A DNA stretch of 14,049 nucleotides from Candidatus Zhuqueibacterota bacterium (lineage in GTDB: Bacteria; BS750m-G25), in the NCBI GenBank assembly GCA_016783505.1, contig JADHWK010000056.1, positions 1 through 14,049 on the forward strand, in the 5' to 3' direction. Positions 4,248-14,049 of the stretch are shown here, in pieces (the first letter of the stretch is position 1; each line of letters begins with the position of its first letter). The notes under the pieces were generated by a model. It was not told where the DNA came from. It saw only the letters and a list, made by a program, of their open reading frames with translations, and ran no database searches. Both the position numbers and the translations under genes were made by a program.

Positions 4248-4545
4248 GGTTTTCATTTTTATATTTCCACCTTGGTTTTCGACTATATTTTTTGATATTA
4301 CGTCTTGTTATTAAAATCCTATGGAAAAACTGTTGCGAAGGGTTTTAGCCTTTCGCTCAACGTGGAAAGTTGGGTGTATGTCTTCATATGATTTTGGACT
4401 CGACATGCGAAAATATACAAGAGACCTTTCACATTTGCATAGAGTATCAAGCCGCAACATTCAGGTTAGATCATATCCTGTGGTCATTTGATCAAACTCG
4501 AAATCTGGCTTGCACTCTGACGCTGCCCGATCAGGTGAAGCGGTG

Positions 4546-4683
4546 GTTATACGCCGTTGATTAGTACTGATTTCAAAGCCTTGTTCCATTATTTTATCAA
4601 TTAGCGATTTGTTACTTAATCCGCTCTTCAACAAACAAAAAGGCATTTTCTTTTTGGGTCAGTTTGATGCGCGGGTTATACGC
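4546..4683 (-). other. Degenerate attC site of cassette 3
   Basis: On the minus strand the first box GCGTATAAC occurs at 4683-4675 and again at 4554-4546. The first copy extends to TAGCGTATAAC, the exact reverse complement of the 11 bases at the start of cassette 3. The inner segment after the second copy (TTCACCTGATC, then GCGTCAG) resembles the inner arms of the attC at 13177-13248. A clean closing GTTRRRY box is not found, so the site is rearranged or partly deleted, and its exact limits are uncertain. Confidence 0.5.
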
Positions 4684-4735
4684 TAACAAAATTTCCGCTT
4701 TTATTACAGTGATTACATTACACTCAACCTATAAG

Positions 4736-5368
4736 TTACTCGCTCAATTTAAATGGCGGATACTGGTCGGTAGTCAACAGGAAAGCATATGCGCTCACTC
4801 TGAGTGACCACCTTATGACACCAACTACGAAATCGAACAAACCTCTGGGATAATTACCAGTAAACAGTATGGCAAACCAAGAAATGATTGTGCAAATCGC
4901 TACAGCGATATAAAGAAAACAGAGAATAATCAAGTGCGGAATGGCCAAAAACCACTTCACAAGGGGCATTCCACGGTGAAGCTCTGCTTTTGCATTAGGA
5001 TAAGGTATTTCAATGTGAACCGCTTGTTCTTCATCTGTTGAAGGGTATTCATGTCTGAGCAGCAATAAATAGGAAAAAACCCTCGTACTAAACTTGGTTA
5101 GAGAAACATTCCAGTCAAACCACCACTTAGGATACTTTTTCCGGAAAAGAATCATTAATAGCGTCGGGACAAATACAAACCCACCGCCGTAGCAAATACA
5201 TTTACAGCCTTGTACAGAGTTTGTTTCATTATGACCACCGATAAGTAAAGCAAAGATGATCAAAATAGGGATGACAGTAAAAATCCGGAAAAAAGTAGTA
5301 AGCTTGTCAGCTCGTTCAGAGTAATCAATACTCAAACTGACAGGGTATTGCTCTTTCGCTTCTGCCAT
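4736..5368 (-). CDS. DUF4389 multi-pass membrane protein (cassette 3)
   Basis: The 210-aa product has at least four hydrophobic segments, near residues 26-44, 58-72, 95-102 and a long block 137-170. The DUF4389 hallmarks are the paired blocks WWFDWNVSLTKFSTRVFSYLLLL and GLFDFVVGVIRWSLRVSAYAFLL, each followed by a YP dipeptide (EYPSTDEE and QYPPFKL), showing the internal duplication typical of the family. The function of DUF4389 is unknown; it is an inner-membrane protein. GGGAGG lies 7 nt before the ATG. The gene begins 74 nt after the cassette boundary at 5442 and ends about 50 nt before the attC box at 4683, the compact layout of an integron cassette. The promoter is probably external or weak. 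Confidence 0.82.
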   Translation of the reverse strand: MAEAKEQYPVSLSIDYSERADKLTTFFRIFTVIPILIIFALLIGGHNETNSVQGCKCICYGGGFVFVPTLLMILFRKKYPKWWFDWNVSLTKFSTRVFSYLLLLRHEYPSTDEEQAVHIEIPYPNAKAELHRGMPLVKWFLAIPHLIILCFLYIAVAICTIISWFAILFTGNYPRGLFDFVVGVIRWSLRVSAYAFLLTTDQYPPFKLSE

Positions 5369-5433
5369 TGCTAAACCTCCCGTGTATAATTTATAATCAT
5401 ATAATCAGTAATATATTCTTCAACAGATAACTA

Positions 5434-5570
5434 GCGTATAACGGCTATTGCTCAGTTGCCGCCGACATTTATGCACAGAGCTTTAGGAATAACACAAAAC
5501 GTTACTAACAATTAAAAACTCCGAAATTGTGCCAGAGCGAGGCGGTCAACTGCAACCACTGGTTTAGACC
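5434..5570 (-). other. attC recombination site of cassette 2
   Basis: Read on the minus strand, the site opens with GTCTAAAC (5570 side) and closes with GTTATACGC (5442-5434). Its inner arms are GGCGGTCAACTG (plus 5541-5552) and CAGTTGCCGCC (plus 5453-5463), complementary except for one extra base. An unpaired base of this kind is the feature that lets integron integrase choose the recombined strand. The 137 bp length is within the known attC range. The opening box has an extra A relative to the consensus. Confidence 0.75.
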
Positions 5571-5612
5571 AACATATAGATATTATAATACTTATATACT
5601 ATTTCCAATAAG

Positions 5613-6458
5613 TTAAAACCTTAATGAACCACCTAATGCTTCGTACACATCCAAAACATTTTTTAAGGCGGTTATTTCCAAGCGATCAATATCAAAATCT
5701 TTATGATAATTTCTTCCGTTGTATCTCACTATTGCAGATTTATTTGAAATAATCGCTTTAATCATATTATAAATATAAGAATTAACAGAAGTATCATACC
5801 ATTCCCATGTTCTACCCCCTCCACTATCTCTTTTGATTTCTCCGTATGAGGGGGCAATAGTAAATGATTTATCGCCAACTTTTATAATGTAACTTTGAAT
5901 AAATAACCAATCACCAGATGTAAACTGAATCCTAAACCGTAACCATGGATTTGATAACTTTCTTTTGCCAATATATAAAAAGAAGCCAAAATAATCAGTG
6001 TGTTCCGTTGTAGTTTTATCACGATAAAAAGTAACTCCTTGAATATCATCATAGCTTTTTCTCATTTTACTTGTAGCATTGGCTAATCGTTGTTTCTCTT
6101 TTTGTATTCTTAGTCTTTCTGCTCTTTCTTCAGCAGCTTTTTCTTTTTTTAATGCTTTCTCAGCTTTAGAAATGAGTATTTTCCCTTTTTCCGCTTCAGG
6201 TGATCCAGGATGTTTTTCGAATAAATTATTTAACACTTCAATAGTTTTATTGTAATCTTTATCGATGAATGAGTTTTCTGCTATTTTGTATAGCCTTTCA
6301 GCGCCAAATTTCAACTCTTCAATTTCTGCTTTCAATTTTACATTTTCTTTTTTTAGTTTATCATGTTCTGATTGTGAAGGGCCACAGTTTAACAATATCA
6401 ATCCAAATGTAAAAATATATAGAATCCATTTCATTTGATCTCTCATGTTAATAAACAT
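5613..6458 (-). CDS. Exported coiled-coil/TPR-like protein (cassette 2)
   Basis: I do not recognise the family. The N terminus has a hydrophobic segment (11-24) ending in LLNC with Cys25 followed by GPS, a probable signal peptide and possibly a lipoprotein, though the lipobox is not standard. Then come a short Lys/Glu coiled coil (30-60), a TPR-like helical pair (about 57-108, with DYNKTIEVLNNLFEKHPGS), a highly charged helix (about 107-135) and a C-terminal globular domain (140-281) rich in aromatics, beta-type residues and Gly. The architecture recalls YbgF/CpoB-like envelope proteins but with a different C terminus. In-frame ATGs at 6458, 6446 and 6434 are all possible starts; AAGGG abuts the first and lies 12 nt before the second. 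It is AT-rich compared with the core genes, fitting foreign origin, and lies inside cassette 2. Confidence 0.75.
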   Translation of the reverse strand: MFINMRDQMKWILYIFTFGLILLNCGPSQSEHDKLKKENVKLKAEIEELKFGAERLYKIAENSFIDKDYNKTIEVLNNLFEKHPGSPEAEKGKILISKAEKALKKEKAAEERAERLRIQKEKQRLANATSKMRKSYDDIQGVTFYRDKTTTEHTDYFGFFLYIGKRKLSNPWLRFRIQFTSGDWLFIQSYIIKVGDKSFTIAPSYGEIKRDSGGGRTWEWYDTSVNSYIYNMIKAIISNKSAIVRYNGRNYHKDFDIDRLEITALKNVLDVYEALGGSLRF

Positions 6459-6509
6459 CCCTTATTTTTTAATTTGAAAATTTTGTTTATCAACACAAAA
6501 TTCTATATG

Positions 6510-6566
6510 GCCTAACGATTTGCATCAGCGGCGCGTTTGCGTCCGTTGCATACAGTTGTTAGCGCC
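6510..6566 (-). other. attC recombination site of cassette 1
   Basis: On the minus strand it opens with GGCGCTAAC (6566-6558) and closes with the consensus box GTTAGGC (6516-6510). Between them ATGCA and TGCA and the GC-rich pieces CGGACGC and GCGCCG pair, leaving extra unpaired bases and a short AAAC loop. At 57 bp it is one of the short attC types. The opening box is the exact complement of GTTAGCGC at 7170-7163, where cassette 1 starts. Confidence 0.85.
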
Positions 6567-6601
6567 GTATGGTTCCGGCTAGTCAATCACATCAACCCAG
6601 T

Positions 6602-7123
6602 TCACCTCTTGCGAAGCCGCGGTATCCACATTGGCACTTCCCGCATGTACTGCTCATACTCCTCGCCAAAGCGCGCAAGCAGCAGCCTTTCCTCGTAGTG
6701 CGAGATGTAATGCAAGAACCTGATCGCAATAATCCACACCACTGCAGCAGCCAATGATATACTCAGCATCAGAAGACCAAGATAAAGCAGAATCTCGCTC
6801 AGGTATACTGGATGCCGAACGACATTGAATACGCTCTCTCTGATCACGCCGGGCTTCTCCCCCTCCTTGCCGAACACGATAGACAGGCCCGTTCTCGCCA
6901 GGTAGCCCGAAAGAATCAACAGAACGACTCCAGAATGTATTTTGACGCCAAGTGGCACGTACTGGTTGAGGAACGTCGTGTACTTGAGAAAGAATGTATC
7001 TGCTATCCACGTAGCCGCAAATAGGCAGGCCAGCACTATCTGTCCGGCATCGCCAACTGCATGCTCGCCGGTAAGATCGTCCCGCTGTTGTTGTACTTTC
7101 TTCTGCTTATGCTGGTAAGCCAT
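6602..7123 (-). CDS. Isoprenylcysteine carboxyl methyltransferase-like membrane protein (cassette 1)
   Basis: The 173-aa protein has hydrophobic helices near 28-45, 59-82 and 108-135. The C-terminal signature of the ICMT/PEMT-type SAM-dependent membrane methyltransferases is clear: RHPVYLSE (103-110), then EERLLLARFGEEYEQY (144-159) and VPMWIP (163-168). Eukaryotic ICMT methylates prenylated cysteine. Bacterial homologues mostly have unknown substrates, perhaps lipids or small molecules, so only the enzyme class is supported. AAGGA lies 6-7 nt before the ATG at 7123. The gene starts 47 nt inside the cassette boundary at 7170 and ends about 36 nt before its attC, a textbook cassette. It does not look truncated, although the N terminus is short and basic. 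Confidence 0.87.
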   Translation of the reverse strand: MAYQHKQKKVQQQRDDLTGEHAVGDAGQIVLACLFAATWIADTFFLKYTTFLNQYVPLGVKIHSGVVLLILSGYLARTGLSIVFGKEGEKPGVIRESVFNVVRHPVYLSEILLYLGLLMLSISLAAAVVWIIAIRFLHYISHYEERLLLARFGEEYEQYMREVPMWIPRLRKR

Positions 7124-7162
7124 GTCATTTCCTTTCCCGCCCCCTGTTTGATGAAGGAATGC

Positions 7163-7170
7163 GCGCTAAC
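7163..7170 (-). other. Cassette start boundary (GTTAGCGC)
   Basis: GTTAGCGC read on the minus strand is the exact complement of the first box of the attC at 6566. It marks the insertion point of the first cassette downstream of the DUF3307 gene. No full attC or recognisable attI lies just upstream, so insertion may have occurred at a secondary GTT site. Confidence 0.65.
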
Positions 7171-7361
7171 CTAGGTTTCAGTATACTAATACAAAACGCA
7201 AACACGGCTAAAACAAAACCTTAAATAGATTCAAGTTTCTAGTTGCAAGGCAACTTGGGTGTGCAAAGTCCTCTTTATTTCTAAACCAAGGCACAGCGTA
7301 GGTTCTTTCTTTATAAACCCCCAAACCATAGAAAATTGCCCCGAATCTCCTTGGTTATGTT

Positions 7362-9118: not shown

Positions 9119-9649
9119 TTAAAATTCCAAATCCTTGTAGCCGAAATCGAAATTCTCCTTTTCGTCAGGCTGATTTTCAGCTTCAGCAATCACAGCTTCG
9201 CTGGGTGCCTTCTTTTTCAAGCTCTCCTCGGTAGGGGTCTTTTCCCCCTCCTCAGCGGACTTACCTTCTTCAGGCCCTTCCTCATCAACATGCTCGATCA
9301 CTTCTCTCCTGTCCAGAAACTGGATCCTCCGGGCTTTTATCTCCACGATATTGCGGTTGTAACCGTCAGGAGTTCTCCAATTCCGACTCTGCAGCTCCCC
9401 TTCCACTAATACCGCGCTTCCCTTTTTGATACTCTCAGAACAGCTCTCAGCCAATTTATGCCAGGCCACTACCCCGATAAAACAGACCTCCTCCCGCCAA
9501 CCCCCTAAATTGTCCTTAAATTTACGGTTATTAGCGATGGTAAAATTGGCCACAGGAACCCCGGCCAGGGTTTTTCTACAACTGGGATCTCGGGTGAGAT
9601 TTCCAGCGATACAGACATAATTGATGTCTGGCATCTTAATGTTGACCAT
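9119..9649 (-). CDS. ssb: Single-stranded DNA-binding protein
   Basis: The N-terminal OB fold (about 8-112) shows the family landmarks: AGNLTRDP, VANFTIANNRKF, W-x-E-E-V-C-F-I-G-V-V-A-W-H-K-L-A-E and KKGSAVLVEGEL followed by RNWRTPDG. The tail (115-176) is acidic, rich in Glu/Pro/Lys and low in structure. The usual C-terminal tip DDDIPF, which docks partner proteins, is altered here to YKDLEF: still acidic and Phe-terminated but weaker. GAGGGG precedes the ATG closely. It protects single strands in replication, recombination and repair. The spacing of 11 nt from rpsF and 9-12 nt to rpsR indicates one operon. Confidence 0.96.
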   Translation of the reverse strand: MVNIKMPDINYVCIAGNLTRDPSCRKTLAGVPVANFTIANNRKFKDNLGGWREEVCFIGVVAWHKLAESCSESIKKGSAVLVEGELQSRNWRTPDGYNRNIVEIKARRIQFLDRREVIEHVDEEGPEEGKSAEEGEKTPTEESLKKKAPSEAVIAEAENQPDEKENFDFGYKDLEF

Positions 9650-9660
9650 TTTCCCCTCAA

Positions 9661-10053
9661 TTAATCAACTTCTGTCTTTTTTAAAGCCGGCTCCTCGGTG
9701 ATAACCCCAACCGCTTCGGCCGGTTTCTCTTCCTCGGTTTTTTCAGCCGCCACCTCACCGGCTTTTTTAACGGATATGCTCAGGGTTAAATACCGAAAGA
9801 TGGCGTTGTTTAATTTGAAGTGCCGTTCCAGTTGGACGATCAGCCCCCCGGGGACCTTGAATACAATGTTTACATAATAGCCGTATTGCTTCTTCTCAAT
9901 TTCATAAGCCAGTCTTTTTTTACCCCACTTGTCAATGGTGAGGTCCTCGCCGCCATTCTTCAGTATAAAATCAACCACCCCGTTAAGGGTTGTCTCAATT
10001 TTTTCGTCCTTCAGCAGCGGATCAATGATAAAGGTGGTTTCATAAGTACGCAT
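9661..10053 (-). CDS. rpsF: 30S ribosomal protein S6
   Basis: S6 forms a heterodimer with S18 on the 16S rRNA central domain. RTYETTFIIDP at the start, the DKWGKKRLAYEI strand, YGYYVNIVF and the FKLNNAIFRYLTL block are family hallmarks. Residues beyond about 95 form a Lys/Glu/Ala extension ending near 130, longer than the E. coli core though such tails are common. GAGGG lies 6 nt before the ATG at 10053; a TTG directly upstream (10056) is not needed. It is the first gene of the rpsF-ssb-rpsR-rplI cluster. Upstream is a 490-bp stretch with a decayed element, so the operon promoter must lie within or just below that element. Confidence 0.96.
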   Translation of the reverse strand: MRTYETTFIIDPLLKDEKIETTLNGVVDFILKNGGEDLTIDKWGKKRLAYEIEKKQYGYYVNIVFKVPGGLIVQLERHFKLNNAIFRYLTLSISVKKAGEVAAEKTEEEKPAEAVGVITEEPALKKTEVD

Positions 10054-12688: not shown

Positions 12689-13063
12689 CTAAAATTCAGT
12701 AAACTCTCTTCTCTTAAGTCCTGATAGATCTAAGGTGCCATCCTTTGGGTTGGGAATTATCTCCCACTCCTCCATAGTCAAAGCACCAATAAGAACATCA
12801 ATCACCTTTCCATCCACTTTTCCCACCTCATCAATAGGTATTACTTCAGTATGAAATACAAGCCCCTCGATTCTTCCTTCAACTGAACAATATTCCTTTA
12901 CCTCAATTTTTCTTCCGCCTAATGCTATTTTATAAGACTCGGATAAGGTACGGATAGGGACACTTTCTAAAAGCCGACTTGAAACATAGGTATGCATTGA
13001 GCCAGTATCAAATAATGTCTTAGCCTTTTTACCTTCAATTTCTATCTCTTTTAAAATCCCCAT
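12689..13063 (-). CDS. Retropepsin-like aspartic protease family protein
   Basis: The 124-aa protein has the single-domain retropepsin layout: catalytic LFDTGS at 17-22 (Asp19), a beta-rich centre with a flap region around GG 49-50, and the second signature VLIGALTMEEW (90-100, hydrophobic-hydrophobic-Gly). It would need to act as a homodimer. No signal peptide is seen, so it is probably cytoplasmic. The start is taken at 13063, because GGAGG lies 5 nt upstream; an ATG at 13075 overlaps that site and is less likely. Only one base separates it from the stop of the 29-codon ORF upstream. The substrate is unknown; clan AA proteins of this kind are widespread but poorly characterised. Confidence 0.82.
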   Translation of the reverse strand: MGILKEIEIEGKKAKTLFDTGSMHTYVSSRLLESVPIRTLSESYKIALGGRKIEVKEYCSVEGRIEGLVFHTEVIPIDEVGKVDGKVIDVLIGALTMEEWEIIPNPKDGTLDLSGLKRREFTEF

Positions 13064-13064
13064 C

Positions 13065-13154
13065 TTAACCTCCATTGTAAAGATCAGGAGCTACTTTTTC
13101 CAGACGATCTCTATTGGCTTTTCTGTTTTTCAAAATTTCTTTTACATTGCCCAT
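13065..13154 (-). CDS. Small 29-aa ORF translationally coupled to the retropepsin gene
   Basis: An ATG at 13154 is preceded by AAGGA with 6-nt spacing and opens a 29-codon frame: MGNVKEILKNRKANRDRLEK then VAPDLYNGG, ending TAA. The peptide is basic and helical in character. Its last sense codons (GGA GGT) form the Shine-Dalgarno of the following protease gene, and the junction is TAA-G-ATG, so the two are almost certainly co-translated. I know no named family. A partner or regulator of the protease, or a leader peptide controlling it, are both possible. Confidence 0.6.
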   Translation of the reverse strand: MGNVKEILKNRKANRDRLEKVAPDLYNGG

Positions 13155-13366: not shown

Positions 13367-14026
13367 TCACCGTACTACCCGAACCCAAGCGTTGTAGCTA
13401 TCCGGCTCTAAGTTGAGCATTCCGTCGTAGAAATAGAGCATCCATATTCGACCGTCAGTAGCGCGATCTGACGTCCATATGAAATTTATGCCACGCTCGA
13501 ATTCCGGATCGATGTGAAAGCGGTCATATGCTTGCGGCTCCATCAATGACATGGCCTCTTCGACAGTCGGTAAACGCCAGTCATTGAATCCTGCGAACTT
13601 TTCGGCATTTATGCGATGGACGTATTGTTCCGCATCTGCAAATGTCATTCGATCTGATGAACCACCCTTCTCCCACATTAGACCAGTGGCGGCGTCAAGC
13701 AGTATTACAGCGTTATCTCTAATCTGAGACTCATACCGGTGTGCGATACCCTTTCCGCTTGGATTCCACCTTTTTTCGTAAAACCCATGTTTTGCGAGAA
13801 GAACTTTAACCACATCGCTCGAAAGAATCTTTGGTTTATGCCGCAGAGTAACAACGGCAGGCCTATCGGAGAAAAAGCCTTGTATCTGTTTAATGATTTT
13901 ATGGGTAGCATCTGTAAAACTAGATATGGCTATGATGGTTATTCCAAAAACAATAAGTATGGCCACTACGCGGTTATTCTTTAATAGAGTTATGATGTTA
14001 TCTACTTGAGTTTTTTGTTCTGACAT
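13367..14026 (-). CDS. Membrane-anchored DUF1566 (Lcl-type) protein
   Basis: The start is chosen at the ATG at 14026, because AAGGAG lies 6 nt upstream; an in-frame ATG at 14047 would add seven residues lacking such a site. The 219-aa product has an N-terminal membrane helix (about 18-36), then a segment with LRHKPKILSSDVVKVLLAKHGF, and a C-terminal DUF1566 domain: TGLMWEKGGS, the conserved FNDWRLPTVEEAMSLM, IWTSD and a closing VRVVR. DUF1566 folds are C-lectin-like and are found on exported proteins of unknown function. The globular part is predicted to be periplasmic. A trailing attC site marks this as an integron cassette gene. Confidence 0.83.
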   Translation of the reverse strand: MSEQKTQVDNIITLLKNNRVVAILIVFGITIIAISSFTDATHKIIKQIQGFFSDRPAVVTLRHKPKILSSDVVKVLLAKHGFYEKRWNPSGKGIAHRYESQIRDNAVILLDAATGLMWEKGGSSDRMTFADAEQYVHRINAEKFAGFNDWRLPTVEEAMSLMEPQAYDRFHIDPEFERGINFIWTSDRATDGRIWMLYFYDGMLNLEPDSYNAWVRVVR

Positions 14027-14049
14027 AACGCTCTCCTTGAAATACACCA

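Follow-up and report, generated by a model that had tools for sequence, protein, structure and literature searches.

A probable decayed integron platform beside the rpsF-ssb-rpsR-rplI genes, one of several in a Candidatus Zhuqueibacterota genome

We observed three head-to-tail gene cassettes on the minus strand, at 4.5-7.2 kb of the analysed DNA stretch of 14,049 nt (the window) and beside the genes rpsF-ssb-rpsR-rplI. We characterized the locus as a decayed integron platform that would have kept an attI-like site and the three cassettes and lost intI, being one of several such platforms in the genome; we put the probability of this reading at about three in four.

The window comprises the entire contig C73, from a 2.51 Mb assembly with 89 contigs and 59.9% completeness. 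The gene order on its minus strand is hppA, rpsF, ssb, rpsR, rplI, DUF3307, the three cassette genes, CrtC-like, polyprenyl synthetase and ApbE. The genome with the closest HppA match (L013) has no rpsF-rplI cluster; genomes L011 and L046 have the cluster without cassettes, and the DUF3307 gene is present in L011 as well. The best HppA matches (81-82%) are in metagenome-assembled genomes named Thermodesulfobacteriota and Pseudomonadota, the remainder being mostly in Chloroflexota. Positions 1-139 of the window overlap the right end of contig C17 (8780-8918) over 139 bases, thus the two contigs probably join; C17 bears two further attC-like sites.

Cassettes and attC sites of the window

The integron integrase IntI catalyses recombination at the G^TT of two partners, attI and the attC bottom strand in its folded form. 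An inserted cassette begins with the end portion of R', and the R'' of the same cassette complements that start. The anatomy of the window, listed below in the order of the minus strand, fits this mechanism.

7166-7210, minus strand: left border resembling attI; it is the conserved tail of a repeat found elsewhere in the genome (GCCGTGTTTGCGTTTTGTATTAGTATACTGAAACCTAG^GTTAG) and stops at the G^TT crossover of cassette 1
7163-7170, minus strand: start box of cassette 1, GTTAGCGC, exact complement of the R'' of attC1
6602-7123, minus strand: cassette 1 gene, 173 aa membrane methyltransferase-like protein of the isoprenylcysteine/phospholipid methyltransferase group (ICMT/PEMT); PF04191 26.9 bits, above cut-off
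6509-6565, minus strand: attC1, canonical; R'' GCGCTAAC, R' GTTAGGCC (6509-6516), the latter being the start box of cassette 2
5613-6458, minus strand: cassette 2 gene, 281 aa lipoprotein with lipobox LLNC, weakly BamD/YfiO-like
5435-5570, minus strand: attC2, long, canonical except for a mutated R''; its R' GTTATACG (5435-5442) starts cassette 3
4736-5368, minus strand: cassette 3 gene, 210 aa DUF4389 membrane protein; PF14333 64 bits
4656-4685, minus strand: 5' half (R''-L'') of the cassette 3 attC, CGTATAAC-9 nt-AAACTG-A-CCC; box 4675-4682
4527-4553, minus strand: second R''-L'' half-site in direct orientation, CGTATAAC-CACCGCTT-CACCTG-A-TCGG; box 4546-4553

For the identification of attC sites we collected a training set from integrons of other genomes and from plasmids. 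The collected sites have a common layout: R'' (8 nt), ∼9 nt, L'' (6 nt), an unpaired A and an inner stem, then L' (6 nt), 8-12 nt and R' (8 nt). Covariance model R1 was built from this set, with zero sequence from the studied genome; model R2 was built from the same set together with sites from other contigs of the studied genome, the window sites being held out. A strict scan for the attC layout was run with controls of 1.27 Mb of bacterial DNA and 0.84 Mb of Markov-shuffled window sequence. Layout scores of 16 or more did not occur in the 2.1 Mb of controls; a score of 15 was reached 10 times in the 1.27 Mb bacterial control.

The site attC1, with its hairpin of L'', A bulge and L', topped the window ranking with R1 (21.4 bits, E = 0.004) and was found with R2 as well (E = 0.0033); its layout score is 15. 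The score of attC2 is 16 (L''/L' 6/6, inner stem 4/4), a value unmatched in any control; both covariance models missed this site because its R'' is mutated (GGTCTAAAC, with GGCCTAAC expected). Thus attC1 rests on the covariance models and the box match, while attC2 rests on the layout scan. The two sites, ∼1 kb apart, have the R''-L''-L'-R' arrangement with an extrahelical base; the third site fails this layout. In its region (4546-4683) we saw two R''-L'' half-sites forming a direct and not an inverted repeat, and found no L' or R' after the half-sites at 4546-4553 and 4675-4682. An Rfam search at gathering thresholds gave no match, and the exact pattern GCGTATAAC...GTTATACGC is absent from the genome. 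Scan matches inside rpsF (9662-9812) were taken as chance.

An earlier note, made from the letters alone, had described three units, each with a gene and an attC-type site. This description stands for attC1 and attC2 (the latter with its mutated R''), but not for the third attC, which dissolves into the two half-sites. The covariance check proposed for the three sites gave, accordingly, a match at 6509-6565, whereas 5435-5570 was found only by the layout scan and 4546-4683 gave nothing. It had also been stated that each start box complements R'' of its own unit, with matches over 8 and 11 bases for cassettes 1 and 3. Both of these matches are exact (8/8 for cassette 1; 11/11 for the cassette 3 box GTTATACGCTA against R'' at 4675), while the cassette 2 box GTTAGGCC agrees with the R'' of attC2 at only 6/8 positions. 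As background, an exact 8-base R'' partner occurs at 4.9% of random GTTR sites. Since the R'' box at 4675 pairs with the start of cassette 3 over 11 bases, we consider cassette 3 to be real and its site to be decayed.

NCBIfam matches of the cassette 1 protein were all below cut-offs, and the protein had no match in the plasmids searched. The protein most closely related to that of cassette 3 (53% identical) is encoded in genome G237 outside any cassette; therefore, it provides no cassette kinship. The earlier characterization of the cargo as membrane or envelope proteins rather than resistance genes was fair for the methyltransferase-like membrane protein, the lipoprotein and the DUF4389 membrane protein. 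With no resistance gene among the cassettes and a location beside a ribosomal-protein cluster, the locus is not a mobile resistance integron.

A further attC, missed earlier, was detected near the end of the contig (17.7 bits with R1; 23.0 bits with R2, held out).

13367-14047, minus strand: Lcl_C domain gene preceding this attC; PF07603 75.9 bits; its start box lies past the contig end
13176-13249, minus strand: further attC, GGGCTAAC ... CACCTG-A-CCGA ... CAGGTG ... GTTATATG

Between this site and hppA, positions 12689-13075 encode a small retroviral-type aspartyl protease-like protein with no attC after it.

The left border is a dispersed repeat

Copies of the 45 bp that precede the first start box of the window are present in contigs C77, C69 (twice), C37 and C11, a recurrence unnoticed in the earlier note; in three of these four contigs, border copies directly precede other cassettes. 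The window and C77 have 46 bp in common at 93%, with homology ending at GTTAG and 36 of 38 positions identical over the tail; weaker similarity of the window border extends to 7275. A hidden Markov model built without the window copy finds the window border with E = 1.2e-8, the match ending at the crossover.

We also built a repeat model, R3, from border copies with contig C44 left out. In C44, its two top-scoring matches (E = 1e-4 and 0.0035) fall on the pair of sites located after intI remnants, and both stop at the crossover. These sites, 127-bp copies of each other with 89% identity, also end at GTT and are attI by position. An exact 8/8 R'' partner follows six of the eight elements (window, C77, C37, C11 and both in C44), to be compared with the 4.9% background; in the first C44 copy, however, this partner lies directly against an intI fragment, which calls for caution on that match. 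Both C69 copies have no attC behind them; therefore, the element can exist without cassettes, or the cassettes there have decayed. Upstream homology among C77, C69 and C37 covers 170-375 bp, exceeding the usual attI, and the repeat has inverted arms (TTTATACGRCC/GGTCGTATAAA). The border repeat probably served as attI.

Another family of borders, characterized by a 32-bp palindromic core (CCTAAACGCCGTGTTATAACACGGCGTTTAGG), is present in C53, C13 (twice), C23, C72 and C37 and, in weaker form, in C30. Its copies also end at GTTAG before genes, several of which are cassettes (repeat loci L193, L191, L192, L188, L189 and L190). The core was not found in 371 other genomes with up to three mismatches allowed, nor was the exact palindromic core found in viral contigs. 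Only a stretch common to both families, TTTATACGGCC...GCCGTGTT, suggests that they could be kin.

Integrase remnants

No protein of the studied genome (59.9% complete assembly) matched TIGR02249 above the cut-off, and C73 had no match to this model; for comparison, 53 of 386 other genomes have a match above the cut-off. A tblastn search with IntI gave no match in the window. The C44 contig carries an IntI remnant in which residues 1-72 and 280-321 (L100 numbering) are fused in different frames, overlapping by ∼11 nt, and ∼207 residues between them are missing; in comparison with full-length IntI the N-terminal part is 62-65% and the C-terminal part 88% identical. A second intI fragment in the same contig (C44:5314-5365, 52 bp) is 98% identical to the first. 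A third remnant, at 8958-9128 of C11 (E = 1.8e-6), has 74% DNA identity to the C44 remnant and precedes the attI-like element across the contig ends. The ends of C11 (L227, 9.3 kb), positions 1-111 and 9231-9341, are identical, as in a circle or in an assembly broken at a repeat.

The remnants in C44 and C11 were the only IntI sequences found, and none of them is a functional intI; no intI remnant was seen at the window, C77 or C37. An intact intI may be located elsewhere in the genome, because the assembly is only ∼60% complete.

Other arrays in the genome

Sites resembling attC were found by R1, R2 and the layout scan on C2, C13, C17, C30, C37, C39, C44, C53, C73 and C77. At E ≤ 1, R2 gave 12 matches in the studied genome, four of them outside the training set, versus two in 20 integron-free genomes (∼45 Mb); R1 alone gave six matches at E < 1. 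Adjacent boxes chain at 7-8 of 8 positions in C39, C44, C13 and C53. Two cassettes in C53 (L168, 5694-6811) are situated between the genes of V-ATPase subunits B and D. All intI remnants, attI-like sites and cassettes of C44 share one orientation. The genome-wide search proposed in the earlier note for intI and more attC was thus productive for attC-like sites (on at least 10 contigs), whereas intI appeared as broken remnants only (C44, C11). A weak attC-like match in C85 failed the layout check.

Some of the cargo deserves mention. The entire C39 contig (L165, 6.1 kb) is an array with four attCs, mostly of lipoprotein genes together with a gene for a PIG-L family deacetylase. Cassettes of C44 (L149; 7819-8850 and 8943-10241) carry genes for a DNA methyltransferase (PF01555) and a DUF2130 protein, cargo of a kind that recalls defence genes.

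Discussion

In the reading that we prefer, decay of an integron platform, an IntI-family integrase, with G^TT of attI and folded attC as crossover points, would have loaded the cassettes singly while active, and its subsequent loss would have frozen the array. Later the R'' of attC2 would have mutated, and the far end would have lost the L'-R' half of attC3. The integrase that loaded the array was probably the genome's own IntI; an intact copy is probably no longer present, and its loss would have stranded the arrays. The observations agree with two histories: intI was lost from each of several full platforms, with remnants left in C44 and C11, or copies of attI spread and were served in trans. 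We lean to decayed platforms; because the window, C77 and C37 keep no trace of intI, these loci do not choose between the two. The idea of a distributed integron, where one integrase acted in trans on many scattered chromosomal attI sites, each building an array beside housekeeping genes, is tentative and rather unlikely.

Cassettes could also have been put by IntI into a non-classical chromosomal site (attG), giving a cluster that never had its own attI or intI. IntI is known to carry out such insertion (Loot et al. 2024, as cited in PMC12901181 and PMC12444791), multi-locus clusters are known in Xanthomonas (PMC12444791), and the arrays seen here are at many unrelated loci, including the one between the V-ATPase genes. 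However, attG sites should be unrelated, while the left borders fall into two repeat families, one with copies in the window, C77, C37, C11 and C44 and the other with copies in C53, C13, C23, C72 and another C37 site; we regard off-target insertion as improbable. Little credence is also given to a border that is an unrelated intergenic repeat (MITE-like, with hairpins) beside which cassettes begin by chance, the window then being an ordinary cassette cluster. The inverted arms, the 170-375 bp of upstream homology and the two C69 copies without attC would agree with such a repeat, but its homology stops at the G^TTR crossover, the very point from which the start box is cassette-specific, and in C44 and C11 the element comes after intI remnants. 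That there is no integron at all, the boxes and hairpins having arisen by chance, we consider next to impossible. The failure of attC3 and the E-value of 0.75 that attC1 receives in a genome-wide search with the independent model R1 could be read in this way; yet chance origin is already refuted by the controls, in which no layout score of 16 or more was seen, and it would not account for box chaining in several contigs or for the existence of IntI remnants.

The earlier note had classified the array as a CALIN, a cluster of attC sites lacking an integron-integrase by the IntegronFinder definition; one proposal regards clusters of this type as degraded integrons (PMC9024848). The definition applies to the window, with at least two attC close together with cassette genes and no intI nearby. 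The classification is incomplete, however: the window has an attI-like left border common to other arrays and one attC reduced to its 5' half, and the genome holds further arrays and intI remnants. In Xanthomonas, dispersed CALINs are found at several chromosomal loci off the canonical platform, and integron activity has been lost gradually (PMC12444791); here arrays are also at several chromosomal loci, but their left borders are repeat copies and no complete platform was found. In chromosomal integrons of Treponema, intI and cassettes have the same orientation, and integron loss with remnants is described (PMC3607928). The co-oriented intI remnants, attI-like sites and cassettes of C44 are similar to these, whereas the studied genome has several attI-like sites at several loci and intI in fragments.

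CALINs, their dispersal and integrase loss are thus already known (PMC9024848, PMC12444791, PMC3607928), as is attG insertion, as cited in PMC12901181 and PMC12444791. In the open-access literature searched, we found no report of a genome in which attI-like borders are repeated at several loci. The usual picture of an integron is one integrase, one attI and one array. In this genome, repeated attI-like borders with arrays occur at several loci together with broken integrases only, and the gene-capture system looks stranded. It would lend itself to studying how integron platforms are multiplied, dispersed and lost, and it also raises the question of whether stranded arrays retain useful genes once the integrase is gone.
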